Position numbers and translations under genes: made by a program. Below the pieces are notes generated by a model. That model worked only from the letters and a program-made list of their open reading frames with translations. It searched no databases and was not told the DNA's origin. From Vicinamibacterales bacterium (GTDB taxonomy: Bacteria > Acidobacteriota > Vicinamibacteria > Vicinamibacterales > SCN-69-37), in the NCBI GenBank assembly GCA_030827135.1, contig JAURFE010000003.1:262923-326922 (forward strand): a stretch of 64,000 nucleotides of DNA. Direction: 5' to 3'. The number at the start of each line of letters is the position of its first letter. The first letter of the stretch is position 1. This document shows, in pieces, positions 7,956 to 60,198 of this stretch.

Positions 7956-7982
7956 GTAGGGCTCACTGGTTTGTAGTGCGCC
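7956..7982. repeat. Palindromic GTAGGGC...GCGCC intergenic repeat
   Basis: GTAGGGC, CACTGGTTTGTAGTG and GCGCC form a small inverted repeat after the PBP gene. It matches the units found inside the cytochrome oxidase gene (39681-39830) and is read here as one copy of a dispersed REP-like family. Confidence 0.55.
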
Positions 7983-8010
7983 ACGGCGGCGCGCTCAAGC
8001 CCAGCCCGCT

Positions 8011-8230
8011 CTACGAGATCGCGCGGTAGACGGAATATGCGAGCGGGATAAGAGCGCCGACGAGCACGAACCACTTGCCGCGACCGGCGAGGCCCGGCTT
8101 CCCGCGCAGGGTTCCAGTCGGCCATGTGGTTAATGGCCAGGCCGGAAATCCCGTACACCAGCGTCAATGCAACGACGAGGTACCCGACATCCCGGTGGAG
8201 CGTGTTATTCCATCGCCGCCACTGCACCAC
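8011..8230 (-). pseudogene. Internally deleted PepSY-associated membrane protein
   Basis: The first 41 codons from a GTG at 8230 give a typical PepSY_TM N-terminus: basic residues, LHRDVGYLVVALTLVYGISG (first membrane helix) and NHMADWNP. The frame then shifts; in the adjacent frame the sequence GKPGLAGRGKWF, a final membrane helix (VLVGALIPLAYSV) and a stop at 8011 form the expected C-terminus. The whole periplasmic middle of the protein (normally 100 or more residues) is missing, so this looks like an out-of-frame internal deletion. Read straight through, the first frame makes a 94-aa protein ending at 7946. It lies 24 bp downstream of the DUF4920 gene. Confidence 0.65.
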
Positions 8231-37538: not shown

Positions 37539-38501
37539 CTACTTCTTCTTATAGAAAGCCTCGATGGGCTGGAACGGGCCGAACTTGTGCTGTTCGAGAG
37601 GGAACGGATCTCCGAACGGCGGATACGGCGAGTCCACCGGCTTGGTTGACCGATCCGGATAGTCGAGGGCCAGTCGGTCCGGGCTCATCAGGGGCCGCGG
37701 CTGTGCATTGATGAAGGCCGAGACGTCGTACGCCTGATCGTCAGTCAGGTCCGGCTTCCCGAACGGCATCTTGGCCTTGATGAACCGCGACGCCGTGATC
37801 ACGCGCGTCATCCCCGCGCCATTGTTATAGGCATCGTCGCCCCACAACGGGGGGAAGACGTAGCCACGGCGTGGGTCGGCGGACGCGCGCAGGCCGAGAC
37901 CATCGCGACCGTGACACAGCGCGCACTTTTCGGCGTAGACCTCGCGGCCCGCTTCAGGGGACGCCGAGCGATTCGGTGTGCGGAACGGCGACGGCTCGTT
38001 GATGGCTTTGGCCGCGGCCGGCATCGCCGCGAATTCTTCGCTGAGCGACCGGATGTACGCCACCATCGCGTTCATTTCAATGCCGTCACGCGGAAGCACG
38101 CGCCCATTCATGCTGCGTTCCATGCAGCCGTCGATGCGGTCCTTGAGGTCGCCCTCACGGCCGTCGCGGCCGGAAAACCTCGGGTACTTCTGATAGGTCT
38201 CGGTCAGTGAGAGCTGCCCGGTCATGGCACCGGTCTGCAGATGGCACGATCCACAATTCAGGCGGCCGCCCGTATATCGCATCCCGGGATCCGGATGATC
38301 CGGTCCGAGCAACAGGTTCGTCTGCGCGATGAGGCGGCGCCCGTACTCGGCAGTGGCCTCAGCCTGCACACCGGCGTCGTCGGTTCGGGCGCGATCGCGC
38401 ATCACAAACCAGGTGGCGGCCAGGGCGGTGAGCCCGAGCACGCCGGTCACGACCAGCGCGGCGACGAGACCTGACGAGGGGCCTGCAGTGGATTGAGTCA
38501 T
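37539..38501 (-). CDS. Diheme cytochrome c, thiosulfate dehydrogenase (TsdA)-like
   Basis: 320 aa with one N-terminal membrane helix (VAALVVTGVLGLTALAATWFV). Two haem sites: CGSCH (about 83) and CALCH (about 192). Between and after them are TsdA hallmarks: GCMERSMNGRVL, YVFPPLWGDDAYNNGAGM, RFIKAKMPFG, AFINAQPRPL and a QHKFGPFQP tail. TsdA couples two thiosulfates to tetrathionate and passes electrons to c-type acceptors. It overlaps the end of the oxidase gene by 4 bp (ATGA), so electrons from sulfur could enter the oxidase directly. The substrate is inferred from family resemblance. Confidence 0.82.
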   Translation of the reverse strand: MTQSTAGPSSGLVAALVVTGVLGLTALAATWFVMRDRARTDDAGVQAEATAEYGRRLIAQTNLLLGPDHPDPGMRYTGGRLNCGSCHLQTGAMTGQLSLTETYQKYPRFSGRDGREGDLKDRIDGCMERSMNGRVLPRDGIEMNAMVAYIRSLSEEFAAMPAAAKAINEPSPFRTPNRSASPEAGREVYAEKCALCHGRDGLGLRASADPRRGYVFPPLWGDDAYNNGAGMTRVITASRFIKAKMPFGKPDLTDDQAYDVSAFINAQPRPLMSPDRLALDYPDRSTKPVDSPYPPFGDPFPLEQHKFGPFQPIEAFYKKK

Positions 38502-41128
38502 CGATTCCGTCTCGCACGCGCATCGTCGGCCATCTGTTCCCGGAAAAACTCGCCGACGTAGAGCGCCACTGCCATCATCTCATCCTCGGACAGCCGGGAG
38601 GACCAGGACGCCATCATGGTGCCCTCAACCCCGTCACGAATCGTCTGTACGGCGTTTGCAGATTTCTGCTGGCGGAAATTCGTGGGCGGCACCGTCAGTT
38701 GGTGGGCGGCCCATCCATCACCCGCCCCGCGTGCGCCGTGACACTGTGCGCAGTTCTCCGCGTAGACGCGCGCGCCGATCACGCGCTGGTCGTCGGTCGG
38801 GCCGATGCGGTCGTGCTTCATCTCGCCGGCTGCGAGGCCCACACGCGGAATGTACGCGACCAGCGCCGCAAGGTCCTCGCGTGGGAGGTCGCGCCATGCC
38901 GGCATCGATGTGCCGGGCCCTCCGTGCCACAACGCCTGCGCGAGGCGGGCGTTCGAGTACCAATGCGCGCGAAGATTCGCGGGTCTCGGGATGAGCGCCA
39001 TCGCGGCCGGCCCTTCGCCCTGGCCCGTGACCCCATGACAGGTCACGCAGTAGCGGCCATACAACTGCTCACCGAACACGGCGTCGCCGTCTGGAGGCAG
39101 CGCCGGCACGTCACCGATGCGGCGTGGACGCGCAGGACTCGCATTCAACGACGTGTTCGAGCTGCCCTCGGCCAGTTCGCGGGCGCGGCCGAGTGTTTCG
39201 AGATACGCCACCAGATCGCGGGCTTCCTGTCGTGGCATCGTCGCATCGCCGCTAAACAGGTGTCGATACGCCGGCATCACCGATTCGGGGACGACAAGCC
39301 GCGGGTCATACAGATGCGCGAGATGCCAATCTTCCGACCGCGTGCTGCCGGTTCGCGACAAATCGGGGCCAATCCGTCGCGTGCCCAACATGTGCGGATA
39401 ATCGCGCCCCCCTTCCCAGGCCAGTGTCGGCGCGCCAAAGCGCGCTTGATCCGCTGCGGTGAAGCGAATCTGCTGTGTGTGGCAATAACTGCACCCTTCA
39501 CGCGCGTAGATGTCGCGACCGCGTTCTTCTGATGCCGTGAGTGCGAGCGTGACCTCAGGACCGAGATCACGCGCCTGCTGGTCCAGTGTGCGCGTCGGCC
39601 ACACACCCAGCGACGCCACCGAAAACACAAAGAACCCCACGCCGGCGACGAAGGCTGACAAATACGCCATCCGATGTACGTAGGGCCCGCTGGTTTGTAG
39701 CGGGCCATCGTTGAGCGCGCTGGGTTGCAGCGGGCCATCCTTGAGCCCGCCGGGTTGCAGCGCCCCCTCGTAGGGCGCGCTGGGTTGTAGCGCCCCCTCG
39801 TAGGGCGCGCTGGGTTGTAGCGCGCCAGTCATCAGCCCCCGCAGAAGATCCAGAAACCCGCCGAGGATCAGGAGTCCTGTCGCCGAACGCGTGATCCAGG
39901 CGTGTTTGGAGGCGACCACCGAATCGATCCATGGCGCGCCGGAGTGCCAGAGCTGGGCCTGGATGAGACCGGCGACGGTGAGGTCGATCACCATCAACAA
40001 CAGCCCGGCGAACAGCCACCAGTACGCGCGGTTGATCGCGGTCGCATTGAAGCGCACGCCGGGCGTGCGTTCCCAGGCGTGGACCAGGCCTCCGGCGGAG
40101 GCAAACGTCGCGAACCCCAACATCGCCAGATGCGAGTGACCGATCACCCAATCGGTGAAGTGCACGACCTGATTGACGGCCATGAACGCTTGCAGCGATC
40201 CCTGCACGCTCACCACGAGATAGAAGATCGTCGACATGACGACGAAGCGAAGGCCGACATCTTTCGGGAACACGCCGGCACCACGCAAAGACATCAGCAG
40301 ATTGGTCACCACCAGGATCACGGTCACACCGAGCAGCGCCGAGGCGGTGATCGCCGTGACCTGCGCGGGCATCGGAATGACGGAATAGATGTAGTGATGG
40401 GTGCCGTTCAGTGGATACAGGAAGAACAGCAGCCAGAAGCCCAGCATCGACAGCGAATGTTTGTAGATCGGCTTCCCCGTGGACGCGGGGATGACAAAGT
40501 ACAGAATCGCGAGCGCCAGCGGAGTGACGAACAGGCCCACCGCGTCGTGAATCCACAGTCCGCTGAAGGCGGCTCCTGCGGCGCCCGGCACAAATTCCGG
40601 CACGATGTTGCCCATCGGATACGAGAGCACCGTGAACACCAGCGCACCGATGACATACCAGCTCGAGACGTACAGCGACTCCAGACCGCGCGCGAAGAAC
40701 CCCGGCAGAAACTGGATACCCGCAAGGATCAGGCCGACCCAGACGAACGCATCAACGATCAGAGGAAATTCGGCCCACTCGAGTGGCTGGCTGACACCCG
40801 CGAGCACGAGCACCCAGCCGGGCACCATGACGGCGAGATTCCACAGTCCGAACAGCCACCAGCCCAGACGTTCGCTGGTGACCGGCCGGCCGGTCAGCTT
40901 CGGCACGGCGTAATACAGGAATGCGAAAAACGAATTGGCGAGCCAGCCGAGCATGATGCCCTGCGTGTGGGCATAACGAATCCGCCCCCAACTGAGCGCC
41001 GGGGTACCGGCACCAAGATCTGGCAGCCAAAGCTGTATTGATGCAATCAGTCCGAAGGTGACCGACAGCAGTATCGTCCCGAGGGCTGCAAGTCCATGGG
41101 CTCGGACGAGGCCGGCCTCGGCACGCAT
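38498..41128 (-). CDS. Fused cbb3-type oxidase: CcoN + CcoO-like + two cytochrome c domains
   Basis: 876 aa. Residues 1-430 are CcoN: haem and CuB ligands are visible in RYAHTQGIMLGWLANSFF, SGLWIHDAVGLF, NGTHHYIYSVIP and VVHFTDWVIGHSHLAMLG. Residues about 433-483 are a repeat-encoded Pro/Gln/Ala linker. A single membrane helix (about 490-510) leads to a CcoO-type domain with CSYCHTQQ (about 545), then two more cytochrome c domains, CVTCH (about 693) and CAQCH (about 791). A complete cbb3-like oxidase, normally three genes (ccoN, ccoO, ccoP), is therefore encoded as one chain reducing oxygen at the inner membrane. Co-transcribed with a DsrE-like and a TsdA-like gene. Confidence 0.9.
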   Translation of the reverse strand: MRAEAGLVRAHGLAALGTILLSVTFGLIASIQLWLPDLGAGTPALSWGRIRYAHTQGIMLGWLANSFFAFLYYAVPKLTGRPVTSERLGWWLFGLWNLAVMVPGWVLVLAGVSQPLEWAEFPLIVDAFVWVGLILAGIQFLPGFFARGLESLYVSSWYVIGALVFTVLSYPMGNIVPEFVPGAAGAAFSGLWIHDAVGLFVTPLALAILYFVIPASTGKPIYKHSLSMLGFWLLFFLYPLNGTHHYIYSVIPMPAQVTAITASALLGVTVILVVTNLLMSLRGAGVFPKDVGLRFVVMSTIFYLVVSVQGSLQAFMAVNQVVHFTDWVIGHSHLAMLGFATFASAGGLVHAWERTPGVRFNATAINRAYWWLFAGLLLMVIDLTVAGLIQAQLWHSGAPWIDSVVASKHAWITRSATGLLILGGFLDLLRGLMTGALQPSAPYEGALQPSAPYEGALQPGGLKDGPLQPSALNDGPLQTSGPYVHRMAYLSAFVAGVGFFVFSVASLGVWPTRTLDQQARDLGPEVTLALTASEERGRDIYAREGCSYCHTQQIRFTAADQARFGAPTLAWEGGRDYPHMLGTRRIGPDLSRTGSTRSEDWHLAHLYDPRLVVPESVMPAYRHLFSGDATMPRQEARDLVAYLETLGRARELAEGSSNTSLNASPARPRRIGDVPALPPDGDAVFGEQLYGRYCVTCHGVTGQGEGPAAMALIPRPANLRAHWYSNARLAQALWHGGPGTSMPAWRDLPREDLAALVAYIPRVGLAAGEMKHDRIGPTDDQRVIGARVYAENCAQCHGARGAGDGWAAHQLTVPPTNFRQQKSANAVQTIRDGVEGTMMASWSSRLSEDEMMAVALYVGEFFREQMADDARARRNR
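39681..39830. repeat. Five in-frame 30-bp palindromic repeats inside the oxidase gene
   Basis: Five consecutive 30-bp units begin at 39681, 39711, 39741, 39771 and 39801. Each has the form TAGGGC or TTGAGC, GCGCTGGGTTGTAGCG (or a close variant), then GCC or CCC and a 3-4 base joint. Because 30 is a multiple of three, they encode a 10-residue repeat (GALQPSAPYE) five times. The same palindrome is found once at 7956-7982 between genes. There are no unique spacers, so it is not a CRISPR array. Confidence 0.9.
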
Positions 41129-41135
41129 AGCAGTT

Positions 41136-41801
41136 CTACCCGACGGTGATCAGGCTGTAACCATATTCCTGGGCACGCATGATACCGACCACGCCTGCCG
41201 ACATGATGTGCGCGTTCGCCACCATGTTTGATTCGAGCTCCTTGTAGACGGCCGCGCGGTCACCACCGTCACCAGCGATTGCGCCGGCATACAACCCGGT
41301 CGCAAGTCCGCACACGATGAAGTGGGCGCCGCGGGCGGCCAGCCGATCCAGGGGCGGGCGTTCGCCGGAGTTGAACGGATTCGACGTCGGCGTCACACCG
41401 TTGGCCGGCTTGTACTCCGTGAGTTCGGTGAAGACCTTGCCGTACTTCGCCCACATGGCGTTGTTGAACGCGAACGCGGTGGCGTCATGGCGCAGGCACA
41501 ACACGACGGCCATGTCGGCGTTTTCAAGCTGATACCCGGTGCGGCTCGCGTTAAAGACGTTGCTGGAGTACCCGATCCCCTGGCCGGCGCCGTTCGCCGT
41601 CACGCTGTCGAGCACCACACGATGTTTGCCCGGGATCTTGTCCAGCCACGCGTCAATGGCGTGCCGCGCCGGCTGGAACGCCGTGGCGGCAGGCGCCGGG
41701 GCCTGTGCCGAGAGATCACGTGCGGCGCCCACCATCAGGCCTGCGGTGGCCGCACCCACACCCGTCAGCAGTTTGCGCCGGTCAATTCCTTCGTTGGCCA
41801 T
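41136..41801 (-). CDS. Tat-exported DsrE/DsrF-like protein
   Basis: 221 aa with a twin-arginine signal (DRRKLLTGVGAATAGLMVG). The mature part reads like a DsrE-type sulfur-relay fold: SSNVFNASRTGYQLENADMA, then VVLCLRHDATAFAFNNAMW, and LAARGAHFIVCGLA, with a Cys (VCGLA) in the place where family members carry a reactive cysteine. It lies 7 bp before the oxidase gene and in one unit with a TsdA-like gene, so a periplasmic sulfur-handling role is plausible but unproven. Confidence 0.65.
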   Translation of the reverse strand: MANEGIDRRKLLTGVGAATAGLMVGAARDLSAQAPAPAATAFQPARHAIDAWLDKIPGKHRVVLDSVTANGAGQGIGYSSNVFNASRTGYQLENADMAVVLCLRHDATAFAFNNAMWAKYGKVFTELTEYKPANGVTPTSNPFNSGERPPLDRLAARGAHFIVCGLATGLYAGAIAGDGGDRAAVYKELESNMVANAHIMSAGVVGIMRAQEYGYSLITVG

Positions 41802-44964: not shown

Positions 44965-45927
44965 TCAGAGTCGATCCGCAGGGCTCCGCACACCAAGCGC
45001 GCCCCGCTCGGCCACATGGGTATAGAGCATCGTCGTGCTCACATCCGCATGGCCAAGTAACTCCTGAATCGTCCGGATGTCATAGCCATCCTCCAACAAG
45101 TGTGTGGCAAACGAATGCCGAAAGGTGTGGCAGCCGACCCGCTTGGTCAAGCCCGCCGTGGCAACGGCGCGCTTAACTTCGCGCTGCACGGCCGTTTCGT
45201 GCAGGTGGTACCGCGTCGGTGGTCCCCAACGTGGGTCATCACAGACCCGCGTCGCTGGGAAGAGGAACTGCCATACCCACTCCTTCGGCGCGTTTGGGAA
45301 CTTTCGGGCCAATGCGTCAGGCAGCGCCACCGCGCCGAGACCGCGCCTCAGATCAGCTTCGTGGCGCGCTTTCACGCGGACCAGGTGCTCCCGGAGCCGC
45401 TCCCGAACAGCGTCAGGCAACGGCACCAACCGATCCTTGGCCCCCTTGCCGCGCCTGACCGTGATCTGCCGTCGATCGAAGTCGATGTCCTTGATGCGCA
45501 GCGCCAGCGCCTCATTCAACCTCAGGCCGGCACCGTACAGAAGCATCACGATCAGCCACACACTCCCTTGCAGTCGCCCCAACACGGCTCGCGCCTCGTC
45601 CCTGGACAACATCACCGGGAGCCGACTGGGCGTCCGGGCACGCACCACACCCGGCATCTGGTCCAACGGTCGATCCAGCACCTTGTTGTACAGAAAAAGA
45701 AGCGCCGACAGGGCCTGGTTCTGAGTGGAGGCGCTGACCCTCTGGTTGACCGCGAGGTGCGTCAGATAACGCTCCACCTCGACGGCACCCATCTCGGTCG
45801 GATGACGCGTACCACTGAACAGGATGTACCGTCGAATCCACACGACATACTGGGTTTCCGTGCGCGGGGAGTAGTGCCCGCGCCGGAGGGCATCACGGAC
45901 ACGATCGAGCAAACGCGGCTCTGCCAC
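44965..45927 (-). CDS. intI: Integron integrase
   Basis: 320 aa tyrosine recombinase. The catalytic set is complete: Arg136 ([10 protein letters not shown]), Lys about 161-164 (GKGAKDR), His267/Arg270 (CHTFRHSF), His293 ([10 protein letters not shown]) and Tyr302 (TTMLYTHV). Residues about 201-240 form the insertion that distinguishes IntI from XerC/D ([20 protein letters not shown], then [11 protein letters not shown]). It recombines attC sites, folded as single strands, into attI. GTG 45927 is the likely start. It lies 104 bp after the DUF2164 gene on the same strand, in a gap that contains an imperfect GC-rich inverted repeat (about 45983-46014). Confidence 0.95.
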
Positions 45928-46708: not shown

Positions 46709-46722
46709 GAGACACTCCAATG

Positions 46723-46814
46723 GCACGCTGGAAACCAGCGTGCCCTACTGCGGCACGCTCAAGACCAGCGCGCCCTACTGACTGCGGCACGCTCAAACCC
46801 AGCGTGCCCTCCTG
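46723..46814. repeat. Three tandem palindromic repeats between the VOC and D-aminoacylase genes
   Basis: Three units begin at 46723, 46753 and 46787: GGCACGCTGGAAACCAGCGTGCCCTAC, GGCACGCTCAAGACCAGCGCGCCCTAC, and GGCACGCTCAAACCCAGCGTGCCCTCC (each quoted in part in the family's arm-loop-arm-CTAC form). Arms are GGCACGCT and AGCGTGCC. The spacing is 30-34 bp, as in the copies inside the oxidase gene. Confidence 0.8.
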
Positions 46815-59062: not shown

Positions 59063-60198
59063 CACGCCTCGATCAGGAGAACACCGGGATCTTCAATCAA
59101 TTCCTTCACACGCACCAGAAAACGCACGGCCTCCGAGCCGTCCACAATACGGTGGTCGTAGGTGAGGGCGGTGTACATCATCGGCCGGAGCACGACCTGG
59201 CCGTTGACGCCGACCGGACGTTCCTTGATCGCGTGCAGGCCCAGAATGCCCACCTGGGGCGGATTCAGGATCGGCGTGCTCATGAGCGAACCAAAGACAC
59301 CGCCGTTGGTGATGGTGAACGTGCCCCCGCGCAGGTCGTCGAGGGTCAGCGTGTTCTCTTTCGCCTTCACGGCAAAGTCGCGGATGCACTGCTCGATGCC
59401 GGCGAATGACAACTGATCAGCGTCTTTCAGCACGGGGACCACAAGGCCCTCAGCCGCACCGACGGCGATCCCGATGTCGAAGTACGGCTTCAGCACCATG
59501 TCGTGGCCGTCGATCTCGGCGTTCAGCCTCGGGAAGTCGCGCAGTGCGGCAACCGTGGCCTTCACAAAAAATGACGAGAAGCCGAGCCCCACGCCGTGTT
59601 TGTCCTTGAACGACTGCTTCTGCCGCTCGCGCAAGGCCATGACCGCCGACATGTCCACCTCGTTGAACGTCGTGAGCATCGCGGCTGTCGCCTGCACTTC
59701 CACCAGACGCTTCGCGATCGTCGCGCGACGTTTCGACATGCGTTCACGGATATCAGTCCGCGGCTTGCCCGCCGTCGTTGTCGGTGCCTTGGGCGCAGAC
59801 TTCCGCACGTCCTCGCGCGTCACGCGCGGGCCATCAGCCTTGACCGCCGCAAGCGGCACATCCTTCTCCCGCGCTTCCCGCCGCGCCGAAGGCGTGGCAG
59901 GTACCGTCTCGGACCCCTTGGACTCCTGGACTCCTGGACCCCTGGACCCCTGGACCGCAGCGCCCCCTTCAATGGTGCCGAGCACGTCGCCAATTTTGAC
60001 GTCGGCCCCTTCGGCGTGCGCGATGGAAGCGAGGACGCCGGATTTTGACGCGCTCACTTCGACGTCCACTTTGTCGGTCTCAAGTTCCACGATTGGTTCG
60101 CCGACGGTCACGGCGTCGCCCTGCTTTTTGACCCAGCGACGGACACGCGCATCGACCACGGACTCGCCCATCTCGGGCACCAGAATCTTGACGGACAT
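59062..60198 (-). CDS. sucB: Dihydrolipoyllysine-residue succinyltransferase (2-oxoglutarate dehydrogenase E2)
   Basis: 378 aa from ATG 60198, which overlaps the sucA stop. Lipoyl domain: [20 protein letters not shown] and [11 protein letters not shown] (lipoyl Lys about 43). The linker (about 78-93) is encoded by an 8-bp tandem repeat. A peripheral-subunit-binding domain follows ([20 protein letters not shown], in part), then the catalytic domain with [12 protein letters not shown] and the catalytic His in DHRIVDGSE. It transfers succinyl to CoA in the core of the complex. ATGA overlaps link it to sucA and the PEGA gene. Confidence 0.93.
59919..59956. repeat. 8-bp tandem repeat inside sucB
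   Basis: TGGACTCC occurs twice (59919-59934), then TGGACCCC twice (59935-59950), then a partial TGGACC. It encodes part of the linker between the lipoyl domain and the subunit-binding domain. Because the unit is 8 bp, gain or loss of one copy would shift the frame. Confidence 0.75.

Follow-up and report, generated by a model that had tools for sequence, protein, structure and literature searches.

Within the window, that is, the whole 64,000-nucleotide stretch of DNA that was analysed, we observed a minus-strand gene in which ccoN and a ccoO/cytochrome c gene of a cbb3-type oxidase form a single open reading frame (ORF), with a tandem array of short palindromic repeats (REPs) lying between the two parts. 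The genome that carries the window is referred to as G000 and its sister species as G011. The features of the locus, together with the related intergenic repeats in the window, are as follows.

38498–41128, minus strand: fused ccoN-ccoO/cytochrome c gene, 876-aa cbb3-type oxidase; ORF open throughout, assigned by its domains
39827–41128, minus strand: CcoN part, 12 predicted membrane helices; 93–70% identical to the CcoN of relatives
38498–39679, minus strand: CcoO part, one membrane helix and three CxxCH cytochrome c domains; FixO and CBB3 domains
39680–39706, plus strand: REP unit, 8/8 stem pairs, encodes GPLQTSGPYV; the unit that G011 also retains beside ccoO
39710–39736, plus strand: REP unit, partly degraded, 6/8 stem pairs, encodes GPLQPSALND
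39740–39766, plus strand: REP unit, degraded, 4/8 stem pairs, encodes GALQPGGLKD
39770–39796, plus strand: REP unit, 7/8 stem pairs, encodes GALQPSAPYE
39800–39826, plus strand: REP unit, 8/8 stem pairs, encodes GALQPSAPYE
7956–7982, plus strand: intergenic REP, 13 bp past the stop of a penicillin-binding-protein-like ORF
7988–8014, minus strand: intergenic REP in opposite orientation, pairing with that at 7956 in a BIME-like manner
46722–46812, minus strand: tandem run of three REPs next to the 3' end of an ORF resembling an amidohydrolase

Using TRF, the array was detected at 39679–39827 as 5.0 copies of a 30-bp unit (score 172), and its units occupy 39680–39826 as five tandem copies in frame with the minus-strand gene. 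The pattern GTAGNNNNCGCTGGNTTGNAGCG, with up to three mismatches allowed, matched at 39680, 39710, 39740, 39770, and 39800, as well as at 7956, at 7992, and three times within 46726–46812; these ten matches in the window compare with 0.29 expected by chance, and no shuffle reached ten. Moreover, the ORF at 38498–41128 stays open across the array, and its encoded peptide includes MTGALQPSAPYEGALQPSAPYEGALQPGGLKDGPLQPSALNDGPLQTSGPYVHRMAYLS. The sequence-only reading, which had placed five in-frame tandem copies of a palindrome in the terminal oxidase gene and, between genes, the same palindrome at 7956 and a related one around 46723–46814, is borne out on these points, though some of its description needs refining. 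The unit is a palindrome, but more than that, namely a REP that on the strand opposite the gene reads GTAG-GGCGCGCT-GGGTTGT-AGCGCGCC, with a GTAG head, an 8-bp stem, and a 7-nt loop. Two of the five copies are partly degraded (6/8 and 4/8 stem pairs), the copy at 7956 has a divergent partner at 7988–8014 on the other strand, and the array sits where, in relatives, two genes meet. The resulting linker in G000 is MTG-ALQPSAPYEG-ALQPSAPYEG-ALQPGGLKDG-PLQPSALNDG-PLQTSGPYVHR-MAYLS, and that in G011, with three units, is LTG-PLQTSGPYVQ-PLQTSGSHGG-PLQTSGPYVHR-MAYLS. The array RNA is predicted to be strongly structured and very stable (z −5.37), in keeping with the earlier expectation that the palindromes would make hairpins in the message.

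In the 876-aa protein, a COX1 domain spans residues 8–419, a FixO domain residues 500–632, and cytochrome c domains residues 686–858, and thus the repeat-encoded peptide sits between the CcoN and CcoO/cytochrome c parts, as had been proposed. A CcoN fold with 12 membrane helices and a CcoO mono-heme domain place the protein with the cbb3-type oxidases, and the top PDB folds in a Foldseek search were CcoN chains of cbb3 oxidases (TMt 0.85–0.87). Against the NCBIfam equivalogs, the scores fell below the cut-offs (157 vs 583 bits for TIGR00780 and 116 vs 201 for TIGR00781), and on these domains and scores the oxidase is a divergent, cbb3-like rather than a canonical one. In the AlphaFold model (mean pLDDT 84), the CcoN helices cover residues 2–433, and residues 444–481, nearly all with pLDDT below 50, lie between the helix at 400–433 and the CcoO anchor helix at 482–522, so that the repeat-encoded stretch is predicted to be disordered between two membrane helices. 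By analogy with cbb3 topology, the linker is probably in the cytoplasm, since its ends adjoin the last CcoN and the first CcoO membrane helices. Between G000 and G011, dN/dS values of 0.042 for CcoN and 0.084 for CcoO (dS about 0.9) indicate that purifying selection acts strongly on the two enzyme parts, and the value in the linker, drawn from few sites, is 0.55. Directly upstream of ccoN, at 41136–41801, there is a 221-aa ORF with a signal-like N-terminal stretch that gave no Pfam or NCBIfam match and is kept upstream of ccoN in four relatives (G010, G013, G007, and G011). Elsewhere in the window, an ORF at 44965–45927 resembles a tyrosine recombinase/integrase, and a tandem repeat of GGACCCCT (5.6 copies) is found at 59911–59956.

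The palindromic unit belongs to a dispersed family. Among 22 different units from G000 and G011, 94% of the stem pairs are kept, with both-sided changes at four of the eight pairs, and the stem covariation score was 0.302 as against 0.085 for shuffled units (0/500), the slid controls also collapsing. Our census, which combined loci found by two patterns with the sequence stretches around the matches and is therefore a lower bound, gave for G000 at least 120 units, grouped in 56 clusters, and for G011 77 units in 39 clusters, most of them outside genes in both genomes, and this agrees with the earlier proposal of a genome-wide and mainly intergenic unit. When seven genomes of the genus were scanned, we found 63 pattern matches in G000 and 45 in G011, but none in the other five, and a reversed control pattern had no match in any of the seven. 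G000 also has a RAYT gene (105.4 bits for NCBIfam REP_Tyr_transpos, cut-off 80), whose counterpart in G011 is 76% identical, and in each genome the gene is flanked on both sides by REPs of the GTAG family; in fact, the closest RAYT (at least 76% identity) and the REP family co-occur in the same two of the seven genomes. Because the unit has the anatomy of GTAG-type REPs (GTAG and then an imperfect palindrome, 20–40 bp), a high copy number with a mainly intergenic location, and a RAYT flanked by the same REPs, the repeat is, as judged from these features, part of a GTAG-REP/RAYT system like those reported in PMC2817692 and PMC3733652. RAYT is the presumed agent of their mobilisation. A second Y1_Tnp transposase gene in G000 (C11:1080536–1080898) adjoins a rho-like gene; it may belong to another repeat family, since our pattern searches matched no REP of the GTAG family near it.

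Here, we noticed that the two strands of the unit differ in their coding capacity. The strand opposite GTAG lacks a stop in all three frames in 113/120 units from G000 and 68/77 from G011 (181/197), the corresponding counts for the GTAG strand being 8/120 and 3/77, and the former, as it is open in all frames, therefore tolerates translation. Hence, to call the repeat non-coding, as had been done, is apt in so far as most copies are intergenic, but as a REP the repeat comes with a RAYT of its own, and in the oxidase gene it is read on a strand that is stop-free in every frame. In-frame intragenic clusters number three in G000 after removal of one chance match. The dnaX gene of G000, for the DNA polymerase III tau/gamma subunit (C11:1241329–1243089), has two in-frame REPs in a Pro-rich linker, 48 bp apart and each encoding ARSNPARPT, and the gene for the E2 dihydrolipoamide acyltransferase (C33:116460–117812) has two that are 63 bp apart and encode GALQPSAPY and GALQPSAPH after the peripheral-subunit-binding domain. 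At this E2 site, there is one REP in G011 and none in four other members of the genus. In addition, a SNF2/helicase-like ORF of G011 (C12; L163:289–1863) has two REPs in frame towards its C-terminus, 48 bp apart. The dnaX gene of G011 has an independent single REP that is read on the GTAG strand, and a strict rule that the opposite strand is always the one read was softened for this reason. A FAD-binding oxidase at C7:6373 was rejected as a REP-bearing gene, its REP-like stretch being a chance match because the relatives align without an indel. The spacing of neighbouring units is a multiple of three in 9/9 cases within genes and in 13/49 elsewhere (Fisher p = 4.7e-5), a result that is partly implied by the in-frame state and in which units from a single array do not count as independent observations.

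Among the relatives, CcoN and CcoO are separate ORFs in G010, G012, and G013 (same genus) and G007 (same family), with the CcoO start lying in an ATGA or GTGA overlap; the same-genus orthologues are 75–76% identical, and CcoN relatives at 93–70% identity are encoded by a separate gene in most cases. Within the genus, the fused gene is found only in G000, with five REP copies, and in G011, with three, the latter on record VFZF01000007.1 of a separately deposited MAG; those other members that possess the oxidase encode it as two genes. This record is labelled Acidimicrobiia, while its oxidase groups with those of Acidobacteriota, and the public name looks wrong. Across 120 genomes of the order, all orthologues of at least 70% identity are separate except those of G000 and G011, the distant fused oxidases of the same order (about 30% identity), which are probably paralogues, having been left out. 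In a set of 80 loci from named genomes, the two genes are separate at every locus that bears an Acidobacteriota label, and they are fused in G011 itself (L063, the record labelled Acidimicrobiia). Those from Gammaproteobacteria and planctomycetes are mostly fused, with linkers unrelated to the REP, and the repeat-encoded peptide, sought in these distant homologues, is absent. Such fusions are common in Gammaproteobacteria and present in Planctomycetota, and thus REPs are not required for a fused gene to arise or to persist. In a concatenated CcoN and CcoO tree, G000 and G011 group with the separate genes of the same genus (SH-aLRT 93) and one origin with the gammaproteobacterial fusions is rejected (AU p = 0.0021), but the tree of CcoN only lacks the power to exclude one fused clade (AU p = 0.21). 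Because the tree is unrooted and CcoN alone is not decisive, gain and loss are separated by parsimony and not by the tree alone. Moreover, since every other Acidobacteriota orthologue that we examined has ccoN and ccoO as two genes, the earlier picture of an insertion into the oxidase gene holds for the unbroken frame but not for a pre-existing single gene, as the array itself would have made the fused gene.

Given that, within the genus, the REP family and the fusion are both confined to G000 and G011, and that the relatives keep separate genes, we consider it highly probable that a REP array replaced the ccoN/ccoO junction in the ancestor of these two species and thereby fused both genes. 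In the simplest reading, the REP came first and the fusion followed. A GTAG-REP, presumably mobilised by RAYT, would have entered the junction of an ancestral operon in which ccoN and ccoO overlapped by ATGA or GTGA, with the loss of some 60–75 bp (same-genus relatives serving as the yardstick), among them the stop of ccoN and the start of ccoO. What was left would be an array of REPs whose reading strand is the one opposite GTAG, and, as this strand is stop-free in every frame, the ccoN frame would have run on into ccoO. The array would then have gained or lost whole 30-bp (10-residue) units, which would keep the frame, to give five here and three in G011. If the gene is translated and functions as one protein, the presumably flexible linker, rich in Pro, Ala, Gly, Ser, and Gln, would tether the CcoO membrane anchor to CcoN and set the CcoN:CcoO stoichiometry at 1:1.

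Alternatively, an ordinary deletion across the overlap may have fused the genes first, and REPs would have invaded the tolerant linker later. This order of events is in line with the fact that, in the same genome, REPs did enter flexible linkers that dnaX and E2 already had, and with the non-REP fusions elsewhere. However, we found no fused, REP-free relative among the orthologues examined, those of the same genus being separate at 75–76% identity, and the ccoN tail, the ccoN stop, and the ccoO start are all gone in G000 and G011, and in neither species can a remnant of tail or start be recognised between the enzyme parts and the REPs, which makes fusion before REP entry unlikely. Slightly less likely again is that CcoO is still made separately from the ATG of MAYLS, and that the array is mainly an intercistronic RNA element. 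While this ATG adjoins the array and matches the MSYL/MAYL near the CcoO start in relatives, and the array RNA is very stable, the ancestral overlapping start has been lost, and no Shine-Dalgarno-like stretch is visible ahead of the ATG, which follows the last hairpin by a few bases; in both species, moreover, there is no stop between the parts and the array length is a multiple of three. An assembly or binning artefact might be suspected, as G000 and its relatives are fragmented drafts (mostly 60–660 contigs) and G011 is a MAG, but the array is far from the ends of its 382-kb contig, and an artefact is very improbable because G011, another species deposited separately, carries the corresponding fusion with another number of repeats on an independent contig of 161,766 bp. 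Finally, a local coding minisatellite born of slippage in the oxidase gene and merely resembling the intergenic palindromes has next to no likelihood, for although the units are tandem and the first two in the linker nearly identical, the unit has the GTAG head and covarying stem of the genome-wide REP family, and that dispersed family is absent from relatives without the array.

Replacement of the junction by a REP array bears on gene fusions in general, which are usually ascribed to plain deletion or recombination, whereas here a mobile repeat would supply the linker. The junction concerned is in a core respiratory enzyme, and relatives preserve the unfused state, making this a testable case of non-coding repeat DNA turned into protein sequence and suggesting that "junk" repeats can build gene fusions. 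It also yields a simple rule, namely that coding use is likely where one strand is stop-free, which can be checked in any REP-rich genome. Whether REPs of the present family are a recurrent source of ready-made linkers, with the stop-free orientation fusing overlapping genes and 30-bp steps tuning linker length, we regard as an evenly balanced question.

REPs in coding linkers are already known, but a core-enzyme fusion that REPs built out of two operon genes appears to be without precedent, and among open-licence papers we found none on the REP-driven joining of such genes. The Rickettsia palindromic elements, compared here by description only, are likewise read in frame in proteins that are unrelated to one another (Ogata et al., 2000, 2002, via PMC10969869), though they are described as about 150-bp insertions into existing genes, and the present repeat is of 27–30 bp. 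For intragenic GTAG/CGTC REPs, grouped units are reported to code for 20–82 residues and are suspected to lie in flexible linkers (Di Nocera et al., 2013; PMC3733652); as presented there, these inserted into genes that already existed, DNA repair genes in many cases, and the account of them mentions no two-gene fusion. The bifunctional CcoN-CcoO (PRK14485/NF011053) and the fused homologues of Gammaproteobacteria and Planctomycetota have the same domain order and a similar linker length, but their linkers are unrelated to REPs and the fusions fall in separate clades, and our fused protein scores 272 bits against NF011053 (cut-off 1080). The GTAG REPs with RAYT (TnpA-REP), or REPtrons, of PMC2817692 and PMC3733652 share with the present family the GTAG head, the short imperfect palindrome, a RAYT flanked by the same REPs, and tens to hundreds of mostly intergenic copies with BIME-like pairs. 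In contrast to these, the family described here resides in an uncultured acidobacterial genus, and one of its arrays joins two operon genes.
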